From positions 1 through 20,094 of IMG/VR virus record IMGVR_UViG_3300031708_000584: a stretch of DNA of 20,094 nucleotides; one strand, 5' to 3'. The translations under genes and the position numbers were made by a program. The DNA comes from a virus. Shown here piece by piece: positions 1,777-17,517 of the stretch; position 1 is the first letter of the stretch; the number at the start of each line of letters is the position of its first letter. The notes beneath the pieces were generated by a model, which was not told the origin of the DNA, did no database searches, and worked only from the letters and a program-made list of their open reading frames with translations.

Positions 1777-2508
1777 ATGGCGCTCGCGGCTGATTCCCTG
1801 CGGGGTAAGGAGATCATTCTTGCCGGTGGAACTGGCGGCCTGGGGTCCGTGGTTGCGACGCTACTCCAGGAAGAAGGCGCACGCCTGACGCTCAGCTTTC
1901 TCTTGCAGGAGATGCGCGCGCGTCAATGGGAAGGCCGAGCAACTATTGTGCAAGCCGATCTCGCCTCTTCATCGGACCGTGTAAGACTTCTCGATACTGC
2001 TCCTTCACTCTATGGCCTGGTGATTCTCGCCGGCAACCCGGCGCGAGTAAGTGAGGCTTCCCAAATGGAGTCGGCGATGCTGCAATCGCACACAGTTAAC
2101 TATCTGGGACCGGTCCTGTTGGCGCGAGAAGCGGCAGAGCGAATGAAAGCCGCTGCGATTCCCGGAGCCATAGTGCTCATTTCCACTATGCAGGCCAATG
2201 CGCTATTTCCGGGGTCCACCGCCTATGCTGCACAAAAGGAGGCCTTGCAGCACGCCGCTCGCATACTAGCAAAAGAGTGCCGCGGCGCCAGGAACGTTCG
2301 CGTCAATGTGGTCAGCCCCGGCGTAACAGCGGCGGGAATGGCGGAAGCCAGCATCGCATCCGGCAAATATGACCGGTTCATCAATGAAGATGTCATCTCG
2401 CGTTTCGGCCGGGCCGAAGACATCGCCCGCGCAGTGCGTTTTTTCCTTGAGCCCGATAATTACGTTACCGGTCAAGTGTTGTGTGTGGATGGCGGCGTCA
2501 CGCTCTAA
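1777..2508 (+). CDS. SDR-family NAD(P)-dependent oxidoreductase
   Basis: This 243-aa protein is a classical short-chain dehydrogenase/reductase of normal length. The nucleotide-binding glycine motif is GGTGGLG (17-23). The catalytic set is N108 in HTVNYLG, S136 in VLISTMQ, Y150 and K154 in YAAQK. The C-terminus YVTGQVLCVDGG is typical of FabG-like members. The usual NNAG motif is replaced by LAGNPA (84-89). The substrate cannot be told from sequence. It starts 2 nt after the response-regulator stop, with no strong Shine-Dalgarno sequence, so it is probably coupled to the two-component operon. Its TAA (2506-2508) overlaps the TAG of the convergent phage gene (2505-2507). Confidence 0.92.
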   Translation: MALAADSLRGKEIILAGGTGGLGSVVATLLQEEGARLTLSFLLQEMRARQWEGRATIVQADLASSSDRVRLLDTAPSLYGLVILAGNPARVSEASQMESAMLQSHTVNYLGPVLLAREAAERMKAAAIPGAIVLISTMQANALFPGSTAYAAQKEALQHAARILAKECRGARNVRVNVVSPGVTAAGMAEASIASGKYDRFINEDVISRFGRAEDIARAVRFFLEPDNYVTGQVLCVDGGVTL

Positions 2509-5207
2509 GAGCCCATAAATCGCGCTTTTCGGGGGCCGCCACTCAACGGCAGGCCGTAACCGATCAGGCAGAACTGATCGAGAGCGAACAGAACCACCGA
2601 CTCGTCCCCGGCAGCGATTGCAAGTGAACGCTCCTTAGCCCAAGGAGTCGTGTAATCGGTGATTCCGATCAAGTGACTGGATTGTGCCGGCGTAAACCCG
2701 TTCTGCGCCGGAAACTGAATCGATTGGCGTGCTTCATCCAGGTTGCGATTGCCTGTATAAGTAAAGTTCTCGGTCTTGAGACAAGCCAGGTTGGCAGGAA
2801 TCCAATCATTCAGCGGAAAATTTACGATCCGATTCAGCGCGGTATCGTTGACGTCGTGCGGGTAAAGAACTTCGAACTCCGCCGCAGGATAAGTCTGACG
2901 CACGAACTGCCTGATTGCGCTTGTGAACTGCCCGATCAAGCTGGGTAGAAAAACACACTCTTGCGTTAAGGTGGAGGGGTCTGCATTCTGGCTCAAGATT
3001 ATGGACATCGCTCTGCTATACTGCGCTTGAAAGGCGCTTGTAGCATAGGCGTCATAGAACGGCATACCCGATGCCGCCGCAAAGTACCACCACTGCACTT
3101 CACCAAATTGCAGATAGGGCGTGACCCCCGCGACAGCCATCAGCCCTGCCATGTCAGCGTAGACCTGCTGCCAAAAAGCTAGGCTGGCTGGGCTAAAGTT
3201 GGTTTGCAACGCTGGCGTATTTACCCATACAGGGTCGCCGCTCGGATACCGTTGCGCGATGCCGGTCGTCACAGTGTCGTCGCCATTGCCGATTTCCGTG
3301 CTGAACGAGGTCGCCACCGATATTCCATGCCCTTTCAGCGCTTGAAAGAAGCTTGTACTCCAGTCGCGCGCCGCCCGATTGATTCGCGGCGTGGCGGTCA
3401 GATCGGTCAGCCAAATCCCATCCTGCCCGCCGGCAAGCGCGGCACTGCTGGATTGTGCAGTGAACTGCGTGCTGTTTGTACTTACCGTAATGGTGATGCT
3501 TTCGCCTTGTGTGCCCATGGCGCGCGCCGTAATCGTCAAGGCGGAGCCATTCGCCTGCGCCCAAACACCGGTCGAACCTGCGTTGATCAGTAACGCAAAA
3601 CAAGTGGCAATACTCTGGGCGGTGTCGCCGATCAAGTTCAAATGAGAGATCGAAGTCGCGCCAAGCGATATCTGCGTGGTATTCCCGAATTCCGGAGCTC
3701 CGCTGAAAGTAACCGTCGCCCACGAATACTGTTGCCCAGGCTGGAGCAACTCATAAAACCACAGCGCCCCGGCATAGTGATTCGCGCGGCCCTGAAAGCC
3801 CAGCGTTTGGATTAGCCATGCAGTCCTTTCGGGCGCCAATGCCTGCGAGTGGAGAGTATCCCAATCGGTTGCCAGCGCCGTCGTGGACATTGGCGTGAAA
3901 CCAGGAAGCCCGGTAGCCGGAATGGCGATCTCAAAGAAATCGAAGTAAAAGTACGATCCCGCCGCTCCTGTATGGGAAATGGCCACTTGATGACTCCCGC
4001 CGGCGGAAAAGTTGCCCAGCAAGATCCGCGTGAGCACATCTTCACCCGCCAATTCAAGGTTAATCGTAACTGCCGCGCCGCTATCTACCTGAACCGAGAC
4101 CTGTGCTCCGCCATCGGCGCACCTGGTTCCCAGGTAAAGAGAGTGCGCCCCTACAGCAGTGTAACCGAAGCTGAGAGAGTCTCCTGGAGTTGTTGTCCAG
4201 TGGATAGATCCGCCTGAGAAGTTACCCAAAGCGCTGCTCCAAGTACCGTGATACGAGATCTCATCGCCAGCTGAGTCCTCTGCCCGCCGGCTACCAGGCC
4301 CGGCCACGCTATATTGCAGATTGCCTCCGCTCAACGTCCAACCGGAAACCAGCACCGAGAATTCAGTGCGCTGGAAAGTCCCGGGCTGCAAATCCGCGGC
4401 CCAAGTCCATCGCATCTTTCGGACATTGGTAACTGGTACAGACACACCGGTCACATCCAGCAGGTTACTGAAGTTGAGGCTTATTTGCCAGGCTTGCGGC
4501 GATTGGCCGCCGCTAAACAATGCAGAAGCGGGCGACCAGGATTCGGTGCCCGACCCATGAACCGTTCCATAGACGCCAATCCGATTGCCATTCGACCCCG
4601 GAGCTCCCAAGTAGGTCAAGGTGATCTGGTTGCCGCTGGCAGTTGCCGTGACCAGACCGGCTGTCTGGTTTACTGTAATGGCATATGCCAAGCTGTTCAC
4701 AGCGGTGGCCAGCGTATCGCTTGACGTAATTTGGTAGTTGAAGTGTTGGTCCAGCCACGCCAGTTCGATGTAGTCGCCCGCGGTCGGCGTTCCCTGCAAC
4801 TCGAACTGGGTCGTAGCGGCAATGGTCGATCCAACGGCCGATGCGTAGTTTTTAAGCGGCACCTGATAAATCGTTTCGGCGCCACCCACGTCGGCCCAGA
4901 TTCGCAGGTACGGCCAATCCACTGTTGGGAACCAGAGCGAGTCAAGCGAAATGCAATTGGTGCGTGTTTCCGTATAGGAAAGACTTATGCCAGCCAGATC
5001 GCCATCCGGTAGGTTTCGTAGCGCCGGATGCTCAAAGACATTGTCCCGGTTCCACTCAACCACTACCCAGTCGAACTGCTGCCGCCAGGATCCTGAAACC
5101 GTGAAACCCGACCCACTGGTTTGACTCAGCGCCGCCACCGCCGAAGGCTCTAGGAAATAGCACTGCAGATCACGGTCTGGCTGTAGTTTCGTAAGTGTCT
5201 CGGCCAT
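2505..5207 (-). CDS. Phage tail fibre/tip protein with CBM-like and glycosidase-like TIM-barrel domains
   Basis: This 900-aa protein is the last gene of the virion operon. Residues 1-300 are beta-rich and include a small module (about 147-235) ending SGGQ. Residues 318-430 look like a jelly-roll carbohydrate-binding module (GSIHW ... YFYFDFFEIAIP). From about 440 the sequence looks like a TIM-barrel glycoside hydrolase: GFQGRANHYAGALWFYEL resembles an early strand, and PYLQFGEVQWWYF (697-709) carries a candidate acid/base, E703. A second copy of the SGGQ-type module (511-597, ending AGGQDG) appears to be inserted in the barrel. It starts by a 1-nt overlap (TAATG) with the hub gene. By analogy with virion-borne hydrolases it may bind and cut surface glycans. 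The fold assignment is inferred by eye, and a purely binding role is possible. Confidence 0.62.
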   Translation of the reverse strand: MAETLTKLQPDRDLQCYFLEPSAVAALSQTSGSGFTVSGSWRQQFDWVVVEWNRDNVFEHPALRNLPDGDLAGISLSYTETRTNCISLDSLWFPTVDWPYLRIWADVGGAETIYQVPLKNYASAVGSTIAATTQFELQGTPTAGDYIELAWLDQHFNYQITSSDTLATAVNSLAYAITVNQTAGLVTATASGNQITLTYLGAPGSNGNRIGVYGTVHGSGTESWSPASALFSGGQSPQAWQISLNFSNLLDVTGVSVPVTNVRKMRWTWAADLQPGTFQRTEFSVLVSGWTLSGGNLQYSVAGPGSRRAEDSAGDEISYHGTWSSALGNFSGGSIHWTTTPGDSLSFGYTAVGAHSLYLGTRCADGGAQVSVQVDSGAAVTINLELAGEDVLTRILLGNFSAGGSHQVAISHTGAAGSYFYFDFFEIAIPATGLPGFTPMSTTALATDWDTLHSQALAPERTAWLIQTLGFQGRANHYAGALWFYELLQPGQQYSWATVTFSGAPEFGNTTQISLGATSISHLNLIGDTAQSIATCFALLINAGSTGVWAQANGSALTITARAMGTQGESITITVSTNSTQFTAQSSSAALAGGQDGIWLTDLTATPRINRAARDWSTSFFQALKGHGISVATSFSTEIGNGDDTVTTGIAQRYPSGDPVWVNTPALQTNFSPASLAFWQQVYADMAGLMAVAGVTPYLQFGEVQWWYFAAASGMPFYDAYATSAFQAQYSRAMSIILSQNADPSTLTQECVFLPSLIGQFTSAIRQFVRQTYPAAEFEVLYPHDVNDTALNRIVNFPLNDWIPANLACLKTENFTYTGNRNLDEARQSIQFPAQNGFTPAQSSHLIGITDYTTPWAKERSLAIAAGDESVVLFALDQFCLIGYGLPLSGGPRKARFMGS

Positions 5208-8200
5208 TAGAGTCGAATCAGGACGGTAAGATCGGCGCCAGGCAGCGTTTGACCCACCGCCAGCACTGCAAGCGTAATCTGTGCGCCGGAAGTTAATGGC
5301 GGCAGTGTAACGCCGTCGACGCTATTGGAGATGAATAGTCCTATCGGAATCGTCAACTGACAGTAGGAAGCGCCATTAACATTTACTTGAAGTTGCACCG
5401 GTTGGTCGGCCGAGGTCCCCAAGACCGCAAACACGTCCCGTACGGAATGCGCCGCATCCGTCACCAGAGCCGCTGCCGCCGATTGGTCCACGGCGAGGAA
5501 TCCGTCTACCTGAATCGAGTATTGGCCGCCGGAGAGCGTTCGAAGCCCGTTATCCACGTTGTGAGTGACGCACACGCTGGCGATGGGCCCGCTACCCTTC
5601 TCGTTGGTGACAAACATCTGGGCGCTGGCCACCCGCACATCGGGCAGTAAGATTGGGTACGTCCAATTGCCGCTGTAAAGGCTGCCGAAGAATTCGGGAG
5701 GGAATGGAGCTATCACCGGCAGGACTGAGAGTTGATAAATTAGGGCCTGTACGGAATGGGCCGCCACCGGACTTCCGTGTAAGCCGCGAGTAACCGTGTA
5801 TTGAGTACCGTTGGTGGAGACCGCCGTGACCTGCATCACTTCTGCATCGATCTGAACGACGCTCCCCGCCTGCGCCGACCCCGCCGAATTCAACGTTAGA
5901 GTTGTGTCGGTCGCGGCCATCGCGGCTGAAAGCAGAGTCGTGGGCGTACCTTGAATCTCGTTCCAATAGAAGAGCGATAGAGTACCCGACGAGACCGTTT
6001 GGGTGTTGGTCAGATCGGTAAACGACACGCCGCTCAGGACTATTGTGCCGCCGCTCGGCCCAGTGCCCAGACCGAATTCGGGCGCGGGAGGAGGGACACT
6101 GTCGGTCGTGCCCGATCCGCCGATCTGCCAGCGCGTGACAATTGCAAGCTGCGGCGGGCACTCCACGTCGCTCGCGTTGGCCGAGCGTCCCGTCAAATGT
6201 ACCACTTCGCCTGCGAAATTTGGAATCGCAAACTGAATCGGGCTGCTGGCGGCCACTCCACCAAAATGCCATGCCGACTCGGCCACTACAAAAAAGCTCG
6301 TCGCGTCTGGTTCTACCACCCACGTCGAAGTCAGAGTGACGGTAGTCGTGCTGTTGGAGGAAATACTGGCCTCCTGGCCAGCGCCGGTTCCCCTGGTAAT
6401 GCGCACCGTCATGCCCAGGTAGGAATTCGCCGCCATCTGCAGCGTGCTGTTGCCTACTGTGTTCGCGGAATAAATGGCGGCGGCGGTTTCAGGCTGCGCC
6501 TCCATTCGCCAGTAGAAGTTTGCATGATCGAAGTTAGGATCGGGTGGCGCAACCAACTGGTCTGTCAGGCCGGTATCGCTAAACTGCGCCGCGATGGCCT
6601 GTCCCGTGGCGATTCGAAACAGTTCGGATGGCGTCGGTCCGCGGTACACGTTGAAGGTTGCGGTGTCCGGGGTGAAGCTCAAACCTGTCAGTGTCACGCT
6701 GCTTCCATCCGCCGGAATGCTCGCTGTTACTATGAACGAAAGCGCCCCTTCTCCGCTGGCGCTGTTGACGCCCGAGACCGCATAGTACAGGTTCTGTCCT
6801 GAAGTCAACGTTCCGCCCGTAGTAATCTGCGGGGAGAAACTCAAAAGAGGGATTCCCGGACCGGTGGCGGCGATGGTGGCCGGAGCCACAAAGCTCACGG
6901 ACACTCCAACCGCGACAGTGCCGTCGCTAGCCGTCGTGTCGGTCTCTTGCACGCCGAATTCGATATTGCCGTTGCTATCGATGGTCGTCCCGATTAGTGG
7001 ATTTGGCGTCCCAATCCCGGCGCTGCCATTCGGCCCTGTCCCGGAGGGTGAATTCGTCTGCCCATTAGTGTCTGCATACCAGGCGTCATCGTGGATCTGG
7101 GCCGTAATAGTGGAAGTCCTATAATTGGTCGCCGGGGAAATCTTCAGAACCCGGAATGCCTGCCGGGTGAAACCCTCTTTCAGATAGGTGAATGTGATGA
7201 TGTCGCCAGGCCGGATCCCAACTGCTTTGACGCTGGTATCAAATTGAATATAAGTATTTCCAAGTATGGATTTATCCAGGTTGAACTGCAGAATCCGGCC
7301 GGCCTGATCATAATTCGGAATGCCGACGGCCATTAATGCCGCAGTGACCTCCTGGCCGGACAGCACAATATCCTCAGGATTCGTTACCGAGAAGCTGTCC
7401 TGTTGATACCCATTGAGACTGTCTTGATATTCGACATTGTAGGAATTCGGCGTGTCCGCGATGGGGCGGCTTGTCACCGTCACGCTGGGGTCGCCATTCT
7501 GCCGCCGCATTATGCCCGAAGTCCCATTGCTTCCATCCCCAAATTCGTAGCTCGGCCATCCGCCATTGAGGGACGCAGTACTGTTCGACCATGCCAGTTG
7601 GGCAGGCTGCTGGAGAGCTATCGTGTTTTCTACTTGTAGTTGGAGTACGCCGCCTGGTCCGTATGTAAGGAACAGCCGGGCTCCATTGCGAATTCCCCTA
7701 ACCAAGTCCCCGGCGCTACGTCTCTTTTGCAAAACCAGATTGCATTGAAACCGCGGCAAGGTGATCGCATTTCCGTTCAAATCGGTCGAGTTGATCTGCT
7801 GATCGCAATATGCCGCCGCCGCGGCAAAACTGGTGAAATCGAGCTCTGACGCCGTCCAACCGCTCCGCTGCAGTACATCAAGGAGTATCCATTCCGGATT
7901 GTTTGAGAACTGACTCGCCAGCTTGGCGCCGGCCACCGAATAGGTTGGTACAATCAGGCCCTGCGCCAGCACCTGGATGCTTGGAATCGAATTTCCGTCG
8001 CTCAATTGGTTCGGCACAACAACAGAGAGGTAAGCCATGCTGCCATAGGGATCGCCCACTGGTTGCCCGCTCCCGTTTACGAAATTCATGTCGAACGCGC
8101 CGTCCCGTGATCCCAGTGTCACTACGTTGTACCATCCGGTCCCCGTCATGTTAGTGCCGGAAACGCCGATTGGGATTTGAACGTCATTGACTAGGACCGT

Positions 8201-9097
8201 GACTACCCCTTGCATCACGCCGATGCCCAGCAACACTTCCATCCGTGTCAGATTGCCGTCATTGCGCGCAAATACCACCAGCGGCTCGTACCACGCCGTC
8301 CCATAGACCATGGGGACGAAGTCGTTATAGCGCGCCTGATTTACCGAGAGATTCGAACTCGTCCAGGCACTGCCGTAGCCGCGCACCGAGATCACTGGCG
8401 GGACGAATTCCAGACCGCCGAATCTCGTGAACATGCCGCGCGCCTGGCAATCGGTGCGCACATATCCGCAAGATGTAAACGGCGCCCCATTATTCAAGTT
8501 GCCCGTCCCGCCCGGCAACCCCGCCGAGTAGCCACAACGGTAGTACATGGAATACTGCCCGTCTGTTCCGCCGCTCACGGCTTCAGCTTGTTGCGCCGGC
8601 GTCGAGGGAAACTGCCATGGGCACCGGCTCTGGATTCGAACCTCGGGCAGCAGGAGCCTCTGCAGGTTCATCCGGTTCGTCGCGGTAAGCCTGAAGGTCG
8701 CCTCCTTAATCTGGTCGGGTGGATTGCAGATACCCTGGAACACCACCGTCGTGGCGGTCAGCGGCACATTGTTCCGGAGATCGTAGAATAGGAAACTCGC
8801 AGTCAGTTGGGCGCCCTTCCAACCAGTCGCTTGTTGGATTTCGGAAAAGTGCGAATCCGCGTTCGCCAAGGTTACCGATATGGCCGGGCTTCCGTCCACG
8901 CCTTGATCGGACGCCGTCTGAATGTCGAACGAGCTTTGCTGAAGCACGCGCGCCGCGTACACGGTTCCGCTGATCGTGATGGCGTGCGTGCACCAGTGTT
9001 CGGTGTCGCCATTCGAAAGGGCGCAGTCGAACACCATCAGAGGCGTATCGGTTACGGCCTGTTCTTTCAGGCTAGAGATGGTTTGCATAAACGACAT
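5207..9097 (-). CDS. Phage tail hub/tip protein with Ig/FN3-like modules
   Basis: This 1296-aa protein is the largest virion protein here. The N-terminal 155 residues (FDCALSNGDTEHWCTHAITI, then VLQQSSFDIQ) resemble the start of tail-hub proteins of the DUF2163/gp27-like type. Residues 380-670 fit the rest of a hub, ending TSTITAQIHDDAWY. A Ser/Gly/Asn linker (675-710) leads to accessory modules. About 755-850 is Ig/FN3-like with FNVYRG. About 868-940 carries GTGAGQEASISSN. About 1050-1122 carries a tail-protein repeat (LSAAMAATDTTLTLN ... VTRGLHGSPVAAH). The C-terminus is beta-rich. The usual role is to close the tail tube and carry fibres. The ATG at 9097 overlaps the previous gene by 26 nt; an in-frame ATG at 9088 is an alternative, and neither has a clear Shine-Dalgarno sequence. 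Confidence 0.68.
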   Translation of the reverse strand: MSFMQTISSLKEQAVTDTPLMVFDCALSNGDTEHWCTHAITISGTVYAARVLQQSSFDIQTASDQGVDGSPAISVTLANADSHFSEIQQATGWKGAQLTASFLFYDLRNNVPLTATTVVFQGICNPPDQIKEATFRLTATNRMNLQRLLLPEVRIQSRCPWQFPSTPAQQAEAVSGGTDGQYSMYYRCGYSAGLPGGTGNLNNGAPFTSCGYVRTDCQARGMFTRFGGLEFVPPVISVRGYGSAWTSSNLSVNQARYNDFVPMVYGTAWYEPLVVFARNDGNLTRMEVLLGIGVMQGVVTVLVNDVQIPIGVSGTNMTGTGWYNVVTLGSRDGAFDMNFVNGSGQPVGDPYGSMAYLSVVVPNQLSDGNSIPSIQVLAQGLIVPTYSVAGAKLASQFSNNPEWILLDVLQRSGWTASELDFTSFAAAAAYCDQQINSTDLNGNAITLPRFQCNLVLQKRRSAGDLVRGIRNGARLFLTYGPGGVLQLQVENTIALQQPAQLAWSNSTASLNGGWPSYEFGDGSNGTSGIMRRQNGDPSVTVTSRPIADTPNSYNVEYQDSLNGYQQDSFSVTNPEDIVLSGQEVTAALMAVGIPNYDQAGRILQFNLDKSILGNTYIQFDTSVKAVGIRPGDIITFTYLKEGFTRQAFRVLKISPATNYRTSTITAQIHDDAWYADTNGQTNSPSGTGPNGSAGIGTPNPLIGTTIDSNGNIEFGVQETDTTASDGTVAVGVSVSFVAPATIAATGPGIPLLSFSPQITTGGTLTSGQNLYYAVSGVNSASGEGALSFIVTASIPADGSSVTLTGLSFTPDTATFNVYRGPTPSELFRIATGQAIAAQFSDTGLTDQLVAPPDPNFDHANFYWRMEAQPETAAAIYSANTVGNSTLQMAANSYLGMTVRITRGTGAGQEASISSNSTTTVTLTSTWVVEPDATSFFVVAESAWHFGGVAASSPIQFAIPNFAGEVVHLTGRSANASDVECPPQLAIVTRWQIGGSGTTDSVPPPAPEFGLGTGPSGGTIVLSGVSFTDLTNTQTVSSGTLSLFYWNEIQGTPTTLLSAAMAATDTTLTLNSAGSAQAGSVVQIDAEVMQVTAVSTNGTQYTVTRGLHGSPVAAHSVQALIYQLSVLPVIAPFPPEFFGSLYSGNWTYPILLPDVRVASAQMFVTNEKGSGPIASVCVTHNVDNGLRTLSGGQYSIQVDGFLAVDQSAAAALVTDAAHSVRDVFAVLGTSADQPVQLQVNVNGASYCQLTIPIGLFISNSVDGVTLPPLTSGAQITLAVLAVGQTLPGADLTVLIRL

Positions 9098-10208: not shown

Positions 10209-10283
10209 TCAGAGCTCGGTCACCGCATCGTCGATCAAGCTAAGGTTTAACATGGCTCCCAAACTGCCTTGGCGATCTCGCGG
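10209..10283 (-). pseudogene. Possible C-terminal scrap of the lost tape-measure gene
   Basis: In the frame that ends with TGA at 10209-10211, 1 nt before the next gene, the sequence stays open for only 24 codons back to an in-frame TAA (10284-10286). It reads PRDRQGSLGAMLNLSLIDDAVTEL. Stop codons placed 1-5 nt before the next ATG are the rule in this operon, so this frame is the better candidate for the original end of the upstream gene. The 84-aa ORF that now covers the locus runs in a different frame and stops earlier. This is read as the scar of an out-of-frame deletion, but it could be chance. Confidence 0.3.
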
Positions 10284-10494
10284 TTATAGGATAACCCTGT
10301 TCTACCCCTGGTTCGCTCACCCTATAGAATGTTGAAGCGGCCATACGCCCGCTGTTTCCGCTCCCCGTGCCATCTATTGCGTCCATCGGTGCAGTGTTTA
10401 CTGCGTGCTCAAATACGGACGCGCGGTCCATCGACCCCTCGCCGGAGATCGGGGAGAGCTTTTCAAACATTTTATCTGCGTTTCTCTTGGCCAT
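10240..10494 (-). CDS. Short ORF at the tape-measure position (possible truncated remnant)
   Basis: This 84-aa ORF begins MAKRNADKMFEKLSP and has a good ribosome binding site (GGAG 8 nt before the ATG), so translation is likely to start here. It overlaps the end of the chaperone extension by 23 nt. No family is recognised. In siphophage tail operons a gene of many hundreds of codons, the tape-measure protein, sits exactly between the chaperone and the distal tail proteins; here only this ORF remains. It may be the true N-terminus of that gene fused out of frame to downstream sequence, or an unrelated small protein. The last part (GYPITARSPRQFGSHVKP) has no visible domain character. Confidence 0.45.
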   Translation of the reverse strand: MAKRNADKMFEKLSPISGEGSMDRASVFEHAVNTAPMDAIDGTGSGNSGRMAASTFYRVSEPGVEQGYPITARSPRQFGSHVKP

Positions 10495-10813
10495 CCCTTA
10501 TCTCCGCTGTCAACGCATTTTCTAGAATGGCGAACGCCTCCACCTGCCGTGCGCTCAACACCGAGAAATCGATCGCGCCCATTCGCCGCCTCACGAAGAA
10601 CTCTTCTACCAATGTTTCGCTGTCCGGGGTAATGTAAGACCTTGGACATGTAAACAGAGCTACGTCTTTACGGGCCCAAACGGGCGGCCCCTTGACATCT
10701 CCGCTGTCAGGCAGCCACCCGCACCGGCGCTTCTCTTCCAAGCCGGATTTCCGGCATAAGTCGCACCTCCAACCAGCTTGGTTTGAAAATTGAAAGTGGA
10801 AGGCGACGATTAG
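10472..10813 (-). CDS. Frameshift-dependent C-terminal extension of the tail-assembly chaperone (GT-like), zinc-ribbon pattern
   Basis: This segment is open for 113 codons in the -1 frame relative to the chaperone gene, starting at the codon after the slippery heptamer. It carries four cysteines: WRCDLC (C17, C20), RRCGW (C31) and FTCPRSYIT (C56), which looks like a zinc ribbon. After it come EEFFVRRRMG and a helical end rich in Ala/Glu. No ATG, GTG or TTG lies in this frame before the CxxC; the first is a TTG at 10741, after it. The full domain therefore seems reachable only by -1 frameshifting, giving a fusion of about 234 aa. This mirrors the G/GT chaperones of lambda-like tails. A separate protein starting from TTG 10741 would lose half the zinc motif. 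Confidence 0.65.
   Translation of the reverse strand, partial: LIVAFHFQFSNQAGWRCDLCRKSGLEEKRRCGWLPDSGDVKGPPVWARKDVALFTCPRSYITPDSETLVEEFFVRRRMGAIDFSVLSARQVEAFAILENALTAEIRDGQEKRR
10707..10757 (-). CDS. Possible 16-codon ORF with strong ribosome binding site inside the frameshift region
   Basis: An ATG (10757-10755) is preceded by GGAGGT with a 7-nt spacer, the strongest Shine-Dalgarno sequence near the chaperone genes. It opens a third frame, MPEIRLGREAPVRVAA, that closes after 16 codons. The Shine-Dalgarno sequence is the 3' arm of the stem that follows the slippery site, so it would be hidden while the stem is folded. It could be a leader peptide, a coupling device, or simply the by-product of stem formation. 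Translation is not proven. Confidence 0.2.
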   Translation of the reverse strand: MPEIRLGREAPVRVAA

Positions 10814-10819
10814 TTTTTT
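10760..10819 (-). promoter_or_regulatory. -1 programmed ribosomal frameshift signal
   Basis: On the minus strand the heptamer A AAA AAC lies at 10819-10813, in the correct phase (codons CGA AAA AAC), directly before the zero-frame TAA (10812-10810). After a 5-nt spacer, GTCGCCTTCC (10807-10798) pairs with GGAGGTGCGAC (10770-10760): nine Watson-Crick pairs, one G-U pair and one bulged T. Inside the loop AACCA/TGGTT (10783-10771) makes a second hairpin that abuts the outer 3' arm. Heptamer, spacer and stem match the standard bacterial and phage -1 frameshift layout. Confidence 0.72.
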
Positions 10820-11175
10820 CGTTCGGCCGCGGATAGCCCGGTCGCGGCCCGCACCGCCGCCACAGCCTCTCGGAACAATTCCTCCGGGCCAGACTCCACC
10901 AGCGACTCGGGAGTCGCCGGCTTACCATCCAGATCGAGCCCGGTAACCTCTCTTAGACCCCATGTCAGGTAGAGCCGATCGATCTCCGCGCGAAGTACCG
11001 CAGCATCCATTTTCTCACCGGCGTCTTGCCCGGCATCCAGGAATTCCGCTCTCCGCGCCAACTCCCTCACCCGCCGCATCAAGTCCATCCGCCGCGAAAA
11101 CGACATCTTCGCGATCAGGTAGCTCACTCCGGCCGCGAGAGCCGATTCCACCCTATCCACACTGTCGTAAGTCAT
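10810..11175 (-). CDS. Tail-assembly chaperone, zero-frame product (G-like)
   Basis: The 121-aa protein starts at ATG 11175 (MTYDSVDRVESALAAGV), 2 nt after the stop of the major tail protein gene; an upstream in-frame ATG at 11244 would lie deep in that gene and is rejected. It is helical and ends LYLTWGLREVTGLDLDG followed by KPATPESLVE, the pattern of small siphophage proteins between tail tube and tape-measure genes. Such chaperones coat the tape-measure protein during tail assembly and are absent from the finished virion. The gene ends at a slippery site, so a fraction of ribosomes should make a longer fusion. Family assignment rests mainly on position and on the frameshift. Confidence 0.62.
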   Translation of the reverse strand: MTYDSVDRVESALAAGVSYLIAKMSFSRRMDLMRRVRELARRAEFLDAGQDAGEKMDAAVLRAEIDRLYLTWGLREVTGLDLDGKPATPESLVESGPEELFREAVAAVRAATGLSAAERKN

Positions 11176-11177
11176 GG

Positions 11178-12347
11178 CTATCCGAAGGCCACCGCGATTT
11201 CGTTGTCCAACGTGCCCTGCGCCCGCGACGGCCGGAATTTCCATTGCAACCGGTTCGTGCTATCGTCGAACTCCGGCACGGCCGGGACCACGCTCTGCAG
11301 ATACACACCCATCATTTGTCCCGAAACATTGCCTAACTGCAGCATCAAGCTGATCGGCGATTGCTGCCGCGCCGCCTGATACAACCCTTCCGTCGCGGCG
11401 TCGTCCTGGCTATAAAGCTCCAGCGACACCGCCACTACCCGCCGTCCTGGCGAAATCGCTAGCGGCAGACTAGACCCGAACTCCCGTGCTCTCGTCTCCA
11501 GGTTGTTCTTCAGGACTATGGACGCATTGGTCACCGTGAAGAACTCGGACGCCGTGGTTCCGAACCATGCCTGACCCAGATTCCCCGGGACAATCGAATA
11601 GTCGAAAGCCGCCAGCGCGGGCTCAGCCGGGAAGCTTTGAAGCGACGCCTCGCCCGCCGAGAAGCTACTGCTATCCAATACGTCTTGCGCCGGCCCGCTG
11701 AACTGGAATTCGTGGAAGTCCCCGTTGACCTGGATTGCCATCTCGTCGACCGCCGCCCCGTTTATCACCCTCTGCACCGCGGTCGCCGGGTCCCAATAGT
11801 CGAACACAGTGACGCTCGGCAACACAGTCGCGGGCGTGTAGGTGACGGTTGCCTGCGTCGCTGTTCCGGTCGCCGGTAAGACGGTAAATGGCGCGTTCAA
11901 CACTATGTTATTGGCATCCACAATGGCGCCGACAAAGCGCAATTCGCTGCCCGATGCCACCGCTTGTCCAATTGAAAGCCCATGCGCTGCCGAGAAGCCC
12001 AGGGCCCCGCCGGCTGTTGCCGCTGACACCGCGCCCCCGCCCGATTGCGCGGGAGCACCCCCCAACGCTGCTTGGAAGAGCGGCCCATACGATGGCCCAG
12101 GCGACGTCTTCAGCCAGCTCGTCAAGTAGGTGTTCAATGCAAAACTCGTCTGCTTCCGTCCGCCCGCCGGGACTCCAGGAAAGGTGCGGCTGCCGGTCTT
12201 GTCCTGCCGACTGCTTACTACCAGCTGCTGTTTCACCGATAGCTTTACGGCTGGTATCCGGTTGCCGGATGTTATCGCTCCCACAAATCCATAAGAGCTC
12301 TCCAGCGCCGCATATAAGCGGTTTGAATTAGAAAGAATGTAGGACAT
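11178..12347 (-). CDS. Major tail tube protein
   Basis: This 389-aa protein starts 1 nt after the previous stop (TGATATG). The N-terminus (SNSNRLYAALESSYGFVGA, then NRIPAVKL) and the C-terminus (QSPISLMLQLGNVSG, MMGVYLQSVVPAVPEFD, LQWKFRPSRAQGTLDNEIAVAF) have the character of siphophage tail-tube proteins. The middle (about 100-170) is Ala/Gly/Thr-rich and looks like an inserted beta domain, making it longer than a minimal tube protein. Its place between the tail terminator and the chaperone is the standard order. It would polymerise as hexameric rings to form the tail shaft. Confidence 0.7.
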   Translation of the reverse strand: MSYILSNSNRLYAALESSYGFVGAITSGNRIPAVKLSVKQQLVVSSRQDKTGSRTFPGVPAGGRKQTSFALNTYLTSWLKTSPGPSYGPLFQAALGGAPAQSGGGAVSAATAGGALGFSAAHGLSIGQAVASGSELRFVGAIVDANNIVLNAPFTVLPATGTATQATVTYTPATVLPSVTVFDYWDPATAVQRVINGAAVDEMAIQVNGDFHEFQFSGPAQDVLDSSSFSAGEASLQSFPAEPALAAFDYSIVPGNLGQAWFGTTASEFFTVTNASIVLKNNLETRAREFGSSLPLAISPGRRVVAVSLELYSQDDAATEGLYQAARQQSPISLMLQLGNVSGQMMGVYLQSVVPAVPEFDDSTNRLQWKFRPSRAQGTLDNEIAVAFG

Positions 12348-14047: not shown

Positions 14048-14959
14048 CTAGGTATTGACTTGTACGCCCAACGCGTTCCGCAGAACGCCGCAGCCGTACA
14101 ATACATCCACCGTGAACTGCTGCGCCAGCGTATTCGGCTGGTAGCTCATTACTACGCGCATGCCGAAGTTGCCGAGTTCGGCGTACTCCGCAATCGCGCC
14201 CGTGCCCGGTAAGGGTTGCGGCAGCCGGCGGACCACCAGGCCGATCGCGTTCTTCGTGAACGCAAGGTTGTGAGTGTTCACCGGCGCGGTACCGGTCTTC
14301 GGCACGAACTGCGAACGGAATACGAAGAAGTCCTTCACCTTTCCGATCGTGCCGTCGACGATAGCGCGCAGGCCGGCTTCGCCGGAATTCTGGAATTCGC
14401 TGAAGCGCGGAATCTGTCGCCACGCCGAATACGTAGCGGCATCCACCACCATGTACTTCTCTTCGAGTGGCGGAGCCTTAGCCAGGAATAACGCTGTTTC
14501 CGCGGCGTCCACCACCGCTTCGGTAATCGCAACGCCCGGGGTGCCCAGCGGGCCGTTGAACGTGAAGCCGGCATAGAGGGCCAGCAGGTCGCTCTCGATC
14601 CTCTGTGCGATCGCCGCCACCGCCGGCTGCATGTAAATCTTCAGTAGGTCCGGCACCGCCAGCACCTTAGTCACGTCCGGAATCTGAAACGTCGCTTCCA
14701 CGTGCGAGTTCAGCACGATCTGCGCATTTCCCAGACTCGGGTTCTGCGTCTGTACCGTTCCGCCCTCAGCGATGTTATTCGCCACCATAGTCGGCGGAAT
14801 CGGGATGTTTACTGTATCGCCGGCATTCGCCAGCACGGGTTCATAGTCGCGATTGACCAGGTTCCCCATGATGAGGTTGCCGATCAGCACTGGTAAAGCG
14901 TCCACCGCCACCAGTTTCACAATCGCGCTTGCGACGTTGTTTGAGGTAATAGCTCCCAT
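14048..14959 (-). CDS. Major capsid protein (P22 coat-like)
   Basis: This 303-aa protein has the features of the P22 coat-protein family: an N-terminal segment naming the new strand (VNRDYEPVLANAGDTVNIPI), the phrase VEATFQIPDVTKVL near residue 90, the helix LLKIYMQPAVAAIAQRIESD, and KYMVVDAATYSAW in the middle. It would build the icosahedral shell around the scaffold. The ribosome binding site is the strongest in the operon (AAGGAG 5 nt before ATG), and two hairpins lie just upstream, both fitting high expression. It follows the scaffold gene, the usual order. Confidence 0.8.
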   Translation of the reverse strand: MGAITSNNVASAIVKLVAVDALPVLIGNLIMGNLVNRDYEPVLANAGDTVNIPIPPTMVANNIAEGGTVQTQNPSLGNAQIVLNSHVEATFQIPDVTKVLAVPDLLKIYMQPAVAAIAQRIESDLLALYAGFTFNGPLGTPGVAITEAVVDAAETALFLAKAPPLEEKYMVVDAATYSAWRQIPRFSEFQNSGEAGLRAIVDGTIGKVKDFFVFRSQFVPKTGTAPVNTHNLAFTKNAIGLVVRRLPQPLPGTGAIAEYAELGNFGMRVVMSYQPNTLAQQFTVDVLYGCGVLRNALGVQVNT

Positions 14960-15577: not shown

Positions 15578-17011
15578 TTACGCTTGCGCCGGATCGTGCA
15601 TCCGGTCGATCTCCTCCGACACCTGATTCTTGATCTCTTGCCGTGCATCGCTCAGGTATTTCAGCGCCAGCTTCTTATACACTTGCTTCACCAGAGTTGG
15701 CGACCCAATGCCCAGGTCCAATAACTTCTTGGCGTCGTCCAACTCGCCGCCGAATTCATCGATGTCGAATTCGTCCATCCCCGTTACGTCGATCGAAATC
15801 CCGTCCTGCCGCGCTGCGGCAATAGCCCACAGCACCTCCTTCATGGAGTTCTTGACAGTGTCGCCGTACGCACGCAGCACTTCTTCGGTCGTGCTGAAAT
15901 CCAACTGCTTGCTGAGCGCCGATTGTTGCGAAGAGCCAGAGCTCTGTCCTGCCTGGCTCAGCAGATAGCACACCCGGTAGATCTCGTCTTTGAGGCTTAC
16001 GAGGTTATCCGCGGCTATCTGATAGACCTTACCCTCGGGTTCGTTCCATCCAAACCTGTCCTGTGGACCAAGCTGAATGTAATATGATTCACCAACAATC
16101 TGATTCCATTCCCGGTCTGAGTAAATCACCGGCGTCGCGAACAGCCCCATCGTCAAAGCCCATGAGAGCGCATTCGCTTTGTTAAAGTGTTCCAATTGCA
16201 GCAGCGCCGACTTATTCAACAGCCACAGCCCGTCCGTTACCTTCAGCTGAAACACTGGCACACGCCGCAGACCGGCGAATCCGTGCCGGCCCTCGTCGAT
16301 CAACTCCACCTGCTTCGATTCGCCGTGCTTGCAAAACACCTGAAAGTTCTCGCGGTCATAGTAGATCCACCGCGTGTCGCGCTCCCACTTGGTATCCGTC
16401 ACTTTGGACTGTTGAAAACACGACGTGCGGATTACCACCCATTCCAGTTCGCCGTTCTGGTCGTAGTTCCAGTTGATGACTTCGTCCGGGCCATAGCTCA
16501 TCAGATAGGCGCGCGACCGCCCCGTGGCGTCTTCCTCCGCGCGAGTAGCTGCCACGCCATCGGATCTCGGGAAATAGGCCACGATATAGCTGCTGCCACA
16601 CACCAGCGTTTCCACAAAACGCTGGCGGAAGAACTCGCTCAAGCTCGTTCCTTTGAGGTCGCAGTTGTTCGACAGGCCCGTATAAAATTGTTTCGCCGCC
16701 GCCCCGCTTCCACTGAACGTCACATTCGGAGCCCGGTGCATCAGCGTCGCCGCATACCAATCCACAATCGAGCCAATATGATTCTGGTAGAACACCCGGC
16801 TCAACCGTTCCGCGTAGATTTCGTTAGGCTCCTTGTGCCGGCGCGCCAGGTACTCCGAAGCCCGTTCCCGAAGCTGCTCGCCGCCCGTGTAAAGGTCTCG
16901 GTACTTCTTCCACATGGCTTTTCGAGCCGCATATTCCGGATGCTCCCGGTTGATAGTCGTTGTCAAAACAGTCGCTCCTGGCGCTCCCCTATTCCGGGGA
17001 GCGGTCTGCAT
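15578..17011 (-). CDS. Phage portal protein
   Basis: This protein is 477 aa from ATG 17011. It looks like a portal of the DUF4055/SPP1-like kind: EIYAERLSRVFYQNHIGSIV near the N-terminus, FRQRFVETLVCGSSYIVAYF, YLMSYGPDEVINWNYDQNGE, then the stem and crown region with LLQLEHFNKANALSWALTMG and LSKQLDFSTTEEVLRAYGDT. It would form the dodecameric ring at the capsid vertex. A TTG at 16966 (462 aa) has a better ribosome binding site, AGGAG with an 8-nt spacer, whereas AGGA touches the ATG at 17011. The ATG start also overlaps the putative terminase remnant by 23 nt, so the TTG start deserves thought. Confidence 0.8.
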   Translation of the reverse strand: MQTAPRNRGAPGATVLTTTINREHPEYAARKAMWKKYRDLYTGGEQLRERASEYLARRHKEPNEIYAERLSRVFYQNHIGSIVDWYAATLMHRAPNVTFSGSGAAAKQFYTGLSNNCDLKGTSLSEFFRQRFVETLVCGSSYIVAYFPRSDGVAATRAEEDATGRSRAYLMSYGPDEVINWNYDQNGELEWVVIRTSCFQQSKVTDTKWERDTRWIYYDRENFQVFCKHGESKQVELIDEGRHGFAGLRRVPVFQLKVTDGLWLLNKSALLQLEHFNKANALSWALTMGLFATPVIYSDREWNQIVGESYYIQLGPQDRFGWNEPEGKVYQIAADNLVSLKDEIYRVCYLLSQAGQSSGSSQQSALSKQLDFSTTEEVLRAYGDTVKNSMKEVLWAIAAARQDGISIDVTGMDEFDIDEFGGELDDAKKLLDLGIGSPTLVKQVYKKLALKYLSDARQEIKNQVSEEIDRMHDPAQA

Positions 17012-17250: not shown

Positions 17251-17517
17251 CTAAGACCCGCACTGCCTGCTCACTAGCTGAACCGCCAGCGAACTCGTCA
17301 AGGCCACGTTGGAACCCAGCGCCCACGGCCGGAACAACGGCGTTTCCGTCGCATCGGTAACATTGGATGGCTCGGCTCCCGCGGCAACCCCATCCTGCCG
17401 CGATTTCAAGTAACTCATTCGGACGGCCTCATGACAGACTACCTGGCTTTTCCGCTCGTTATGACAGGATGGGTCGTGGATTATTTGTCTTTCGAGAGAC
17501 TTGTGAATGCGACGCAT
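17251..17517 (-). CDS. Doubtful 88-aa ORF in the decayed terminase region
   Basis: The ATG directly follows the stop of the 86-aa ORF (TAAATG), which is how other genes here are coupled, so the first codons may once have started a real gene. The protein (MRRIHKSLERQIIHDPSCHN and on) has no recognisable domain, and its second half (TSSLAVQLVSRQC) looks like random translation. It may be the start of the lost terminase gene joined to unrelated sequence by a deletion, or not a gene at all. Confidence 0.22.
   Translation of the reverse strand: MRRIHKSLERQIIHDPSCHNERKSQVVCHEAVRMSYLKSRQDGVAAGAEPSNVTDATETPLFRPWALGSNVALTSSLAVQLVSRQCGS

Follow-up and report, generated by a model that had tools for sequence, protein, structure and literature searches.

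A conserved putative −1 frameshift signal in the predicted tail chaperone gene of a gene transfer agent-like element from Bryobacterales

Frameshift sites of tail chaperone genes

Xu, Hendrix and Duda reportedly described, in 2004, a conserved frameshift in the tail genes of dsDNA phages. According to the passages that a review devotes to the subject, −1 G-T frameshifting is widely conserved, the g-t shift site being A_AAA_AAC in haloarchaeal HCTV-2, and G_GGA_AAC and G_GGA_AAG in HCTV-1 and HCTV-5, and E. coli shifts less efficiently at A_AAA_AAC than at A_AAA_AAG (PMC5009743). The relevant sections of other reports place A_AAA_AAC in the tail-chaperone pair of the phiCbK-group Caulobacter phages (PMC3556154), in the Acinetobacter phages Loki and IME_AB3 (PMC5313236) and, possibly, in the P. 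larvae phage Dragolir (PMC6003738), and a genome-wide survey has it among its consensus heptamers (PMC3711429).

We studied a candidate signal of this kind in a 20,094-nt stretch of viral DNA (IMG/VR record IMGVR_UViG_3300031708_000584, positions 1 to 20,094), hereafter the window. Like lambda G/GT, the locus follows a tail protein gene and precedes the tape measure, its heptamer ends the upstream ORF, and the −1 extension has no start of its own. Unlike lambda, where the heptamer is G_GGA_AAG, it combines A_AAA_AAC with a conserved stem 5 nt downstream, its G and T proteins have no detectable similarity to known families, and it belongs to an element resembling gene transfer agents (GTAs), which is devoid of a tape measure in the lineage of the window. 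With the phiCbK group, Loki, IME_AB3, HCTV-2 and Dragolir, as described in the passages cited above, it shares AAAAAAC in a tail-chaperone pair and, in the case of Loki, also the direct contact between the heptamer and the stop of the upstream gene. In contrast, these precedents are single phages or phage groups from other hosts, and no covarying downstream stem is described in those passages, while the phage collection that we searched contained no sequence similar to G or T. Since A_AAA_AAC has precedents in this very gene pair, we have here a further case of a known kind of frameshift, and the features distinguishing it are the conserved stem and the setting. The initial annotation had suggested that the combination of heptamer and stem might be undescribed; this does not hold for the heptamer, whereas the passages cited above describe no covarying stem.

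The heptamer and its stem

On the minus strand, the G ORF (10810..11175, 121 aa, zero frame) ends with ...GAA CGA AAA AAC TAA, which puts the heptamer A AAA AAC (10813..10819, with the six A at 10819-10814 and the C at 10813) in the phase that fits tandem −1 slippage. The zero-frame stop TAA (10810..10812) abuts the heptamer and forms part of a 5-nt spacer, TAATC (10808..10812), and the T extension stays open in the −1 frame for 113 codons (10475..10813), from CTA at 10813 to TAA at 10474-10472. Phase, stop and open frame, all of which the initial annotation had pointed out, can thus be read directly in the sequence. Taken alone, such a heptamer means little: AAAAAAC occurs twice in the window for 2.04 occurrences expected, i.e., at chance level, so that a single sequence amounts to little proof, and any significance has to come from conservation and from a synonymous-codon control on the stem.

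To this end, loci of the T family were de-duplicated (98, later 178, were compared) and supplemented by 40 loci from genomes of the order, for a total of 218. The initial annotation had proposed to look for homologous loci in which the heptamer was lost and both frames were kept; the heptamer, as AAAAAA(C/T), is present in identical phase in all 218. Its A run is exactly six nucleotides long in 217 of them, and the codon providing the first A, which specifies R, A, T, V, G or I, always has A at its third position. In 177 of 178 loci, 0 or 1 codon separates the heptamer from the zero-frame stop, and the AAA codon is frozen at its wobble base (178/178, against a background of 29%). The heptamer therefore remains unchanged across an order although adjacent codons diverge, and the support that comparison lends to it is unusually good. 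A sequencing error or a broken gene is ruled out by the agreement of all independent loci.

Downstream of the spacer, the 5' arm of the stem, GTCGCCTTCC (10798..10807, minus strand), pairs with the 3' arm, GGAGGTGCGAC (10760..10770, minus strand), in which the T (U) at 10765 is bulged. These 10 pairs with one bulge, as drawn in the initial annotation, were confirmed in the window, with a local minimum free energy (MFE) of −17.2 kcal/mol, and the offset of the 5' arm is identical in the relatives. As a control, codons were swapped for synonyms at the family's own usage and the arm duplex energy was recomputed. The mean arm duplex energy is −13.5 kcal/mol, compared with −7.2 kcal/mol in the synonymous recodings; the arms pair better than in 95% of their own recodings in 64 of 72 non-redundant sequences, and none of 300 recodings of the window attains the observed energy. 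Moreover, T codons inside the arms are synonymously near-frozen (GTC in 173/173 sequences vs. 20% background; GAC 99% vs. 60%; AAG 99% vs. 71%), unlike the loop codons, which are mostly variable. When pairs were counted over the named structure, 94% of the cells were paired, vs. 39–54% in slid controls, and changes on both sides were seen in four stem pairs. Across 108 sequences, the outer pairs occur as GC/CG/AU and UA/CG/UG, while those sequences having A at the sixth arm position may pair it with the U that is bulged elsewhere. In several loci, the loop is longer and the arms are retained. Per-pair covariation is modest because a large part of the stem is invariant. As for the MFE of the whole region, it is only mildly under the synonymous control (mean z −0.59, vs. 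−0.74 for an adjacent control stretch); this measure being insensitive here, the arm-specific duplex energy was used as the test. Judging from these alignments, the stem is retained beyond coding constraint, with compensatory changes. In contrast, the 5-bp hairpin that the initial annotation had placed within the loop (10783-10771) was rejected as a conserved structure: among 178 loci, the five pairs can form in 177, 89, 152, 174 and 15, respectively.

The G and T products and their gene cluster

In the relatives of the window, the head part of the cluster consists of the large terminase, portal, scaffold, P22-like coat and three small genes, followed by the probable tail tube, G/T, a mini tape measure, two DUF2460-type genes, the hub and a TIM-barrel sheath-like protein, which makes for a complete head-tail structural cassette. 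The window, which lacks an intact large terminase, contains the following genes on its minus strand: portal protein (15578..17011; PHROG 145, E 1e-49), P22-coat-like major capsid protein (14048..14959; PF11651, PHROG 283), a tail protein directly upstream of G (11178..12347; PHROG 290 minor tail protein, E 2e-15), probably the tail tube given its position, tail hub/tip protein (5207..9097; PF13550, PHROG 31) and a non-contractile tail sheath-like protein of 900 aa with a TIM barrel (2505..5207; PF23845, E 5e-18). In the family, G/T thus sits between the probable tail tube and tape measure genes. A tape-measure-like ORF was recognized by motif in 113 of 147 loci and measures ~176–430 aa in most relatives, that of the window being a relic.

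T matches were found in 135 IMG/VR contigs, as well as in Bryobacterales, Solibacter and other acidobacterial metagenome-assembled genomes (MAGs). The AlphaFold model of G has a pLDDT of 90, that of T a mediocre 77. Foldseek searches of BFVD with G returned several tail assembly, pre-tape measure and tape measure chaperones at a TM-score of ~0.5, mostly with weak E-values, the sole strong match being an uncharacterised phage protein. Foldseek against PDB gave no fold match for G, a profile search returned nothing, and neither Pfam, PHROGs nor tblastn against phages yielded a convincing homologue of G or T, with no phage record matched. For want of a match in PDB or in sequence families, it is on position, gene architecture and weak structural likeness that G is predicted to be a tail-assembly chaperone, the ORF itself being backed by the family alignment and dN/dS. 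The N-terminal part of T is rich in cysteines, of which several are invariant (CxxC...C...C), and may correspond to a metal-binding site.

We consider it highly probable (about 0.9) that the heptamer and the stem constitute a programmed −1 ribosomal frameshift signal yielding a G and GT tail-assembly chaperone, and the comparison of loci strongly supports the frameshift cassette that the initial annotation had placed in a tail chaperone gene. That the shift occurs, its rate and the chaperone role are what we infer from sequence. According to this model, the majority of ribosomes would read G through to TAA and release the 121-aa chaperone, while a minority would be halted for a time by the stem, 5 nt farther on, with Lys-tRNA and Asn-tRNA on AAA AAC; both tRNAs would then slip back by one base onto AAA AAA, and reading would resume with CTA ATC GTC into T. 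The resulting GT protein would measure ~234 aa and have the junction ...ERKN-LIVAFHFQFS..., or ...ERKK-LIVAF... if a single tRNA slipped, a predicted junction peptide being, e.g., NLIVAFHFQFSNQAGWR. If the pair works as in lambda, the tape measure would be the partner of G and the tail tube protein that of T, with G and GT present in a fixed ratio.

Besides the lesser strength of A_AAA_AAC in E. coli, the modest covariation and the negative family and PDB searches, the state of the tape measure counts against this reading: the presumed client is mostly deleted in the lineage of the window. Comparison with relatives shows that an 84-aa ORF (10240..10494, minus strand) is all that remains of it, and relics of differing lengths are found in the window and in L002-L006, as well as in L127, L214, L215, L217, L229 and L235, with G/T and the remainder of the operon intact; one other clade, if not more, has lost the gene too. 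Likewise, a 40-aa sequence match (17332..17451, minus strand) is the only relic of the large terminase, a gene detected in 64 of the 67 loci that could be tested for it. In the close relative L165, for which a whole MAG is available, we recovered only a 34-aa terminase remnant with a stop (G001:C205:63522-63623), in a MAG that may be incomplete.

At face value, with most of both genes missing from the window, the signal might be a mere relic in a decaying prophage, where G and GT would no longer matter. We regard this as improbable, because within the lineage of the window dN/dS amounts to 0.03–0.15 for G, 0.06–0.15 for T and 0.00–0.07 for the capsid protein, and the flanking chromosomal genes behave similarly at similar dS (SDR 0.09, NtrC 0.03, isomerase 0.11). 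Over G, T, capsid and tail genes, values range from ~0.00 to 0.19, like those of adjacent chromosomal genes, so that, as far as substitution patterns tell, these genes are under purifying selection despite the loss of the tape measure and terminase. Three readings would fit: the proteins have uses for which neither gene is required, both genes were lost only recently on this scale, or another source provides their functions.

Less probable still, and to be given very little weight, is the idea that T is made independently, from an internal start or through re-initiation once ribosomes have terminated G, in which case the overlap would reflect ordinary coupling. Stop-start coupling of overlapping genes is frequent in phage operons, and an in-frame ATG does exist in some loci, e.g., 8 codons upstream in eight of them. 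However, the T frame of the window contains no ATG, GTG or TTG between its upstream stop and the 20th codon after the heptamer; the same stretch is start-free in 61 of 218 loci and ATG-free in 175 of 218. The earliest start listed for the window, a TTG at 10741, falls within the conserved Cys-rich part of T, and separate initiation would leave the frozen heptamer unexplained. No better placed is transcriptional slippage, by which RNA polymerase would slip on the A run and yield mRNAs in which T is in frame: slippage at poly-A tracts does occur in bacteria and an A6 run is present, but a run of almost invariably six is short for bacterial polymerases and shows no drift to longer runs, while polymerase slippage would need no stem kept at a fixed 5-nt spacing beyond coding constraint. 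We retain the ribosomal frameshift as the most probable explanation for the G/T pair.

Inheritance of the element

The element was traced in bacterial genomes, most of which are MAGs, the order name Bryobacterales being taken from the relative L165 alone. Of the 150 genomes of the order, 106 contain T, each with a single strong match. In a sample of 250 genomes from the class, 49 matched, nearly all of which had already been found in the order search. A head-tail cassette of ~16 kb, essentially single per genome, was observed at L165-L188 and L267-L306. For comparison with the host tree, four element proteins were set against checked rpoB ORFs. The two trees have 15 of 27 splits in common (random mean 0.24), with a Mantel r of 0.74, while the element tree contradicts five supported host splits. 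Furthermore, 10–11 loci, including the most divergent ones, have common downstream chromosomal neighbours, i.e., ABC-transporter ATPase-like and peptidase-like genes (named from sequence only). The flanking genes of the window itself recur beside the element only in L165, apart from the SDR gene, also found in L175, and differ from the neighbours common across the order. Altogether, single copy, congruence with rpoB and common neighbours point to a mainly vertical, GTA-like element, and we propose this chromosomal cluster of Bryobacterales as a candidate gene transfer agent. The initial annotation had referred to siphophage tail operons; the element does not look like an ordinary siphophage, and would rather be an order-wide, mainly vertically inherited cluster, in which the tape measure adjoining G/T is mostly gone in the lineage of the window.

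With the GTAs described as viriforms (e.g., Rhodogtaviriformidae; PMC9662315), the element has in common about one head/packaging/tail cluster per genome, a tree largely congruent with that of the hosts and neighbours conserved in part of the genomes. It differs from them in that the lineage of the window is without a large terminase and in that it is known here from its genes alone. Acidobacteria are not mentioned in that paper (PMC9662315), and our literature search found no report of a gene transfer agent for Bryobacterales or its phylum. The carrier of the putative frameshift signal is a candidate gene transfer agent from one of the major phyla of soil, and the signal opens the G:GT ratio to testing in a chromosomal element that appears domesticated.

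Combining these lines, we tentatively envisage, at slightly less than even odds, an undescribed order-wide GTA-like element whose chaperone is set by a stem-stimulated A_AAA_AAC frameshift and has remained under selection after some lineages, that of the window included, lost the tape measure (the window lost the large terminase as well). If true, G/GT would serve a particle that no longer measures its tail or packages DNA by itself. Those lineages without tape measure but with G/GT represent a natural experiment on a possible chaperone role beyond tail length. Regarding the intact tape measure, that of one relative (L016:8323-9009) matches the phrog_3779 tape measure by its C-terminus (E 2.9e-4); this protein and its homologues are very short (~200 aa), tape-measure-like and endowed with one hydrophobic segment.
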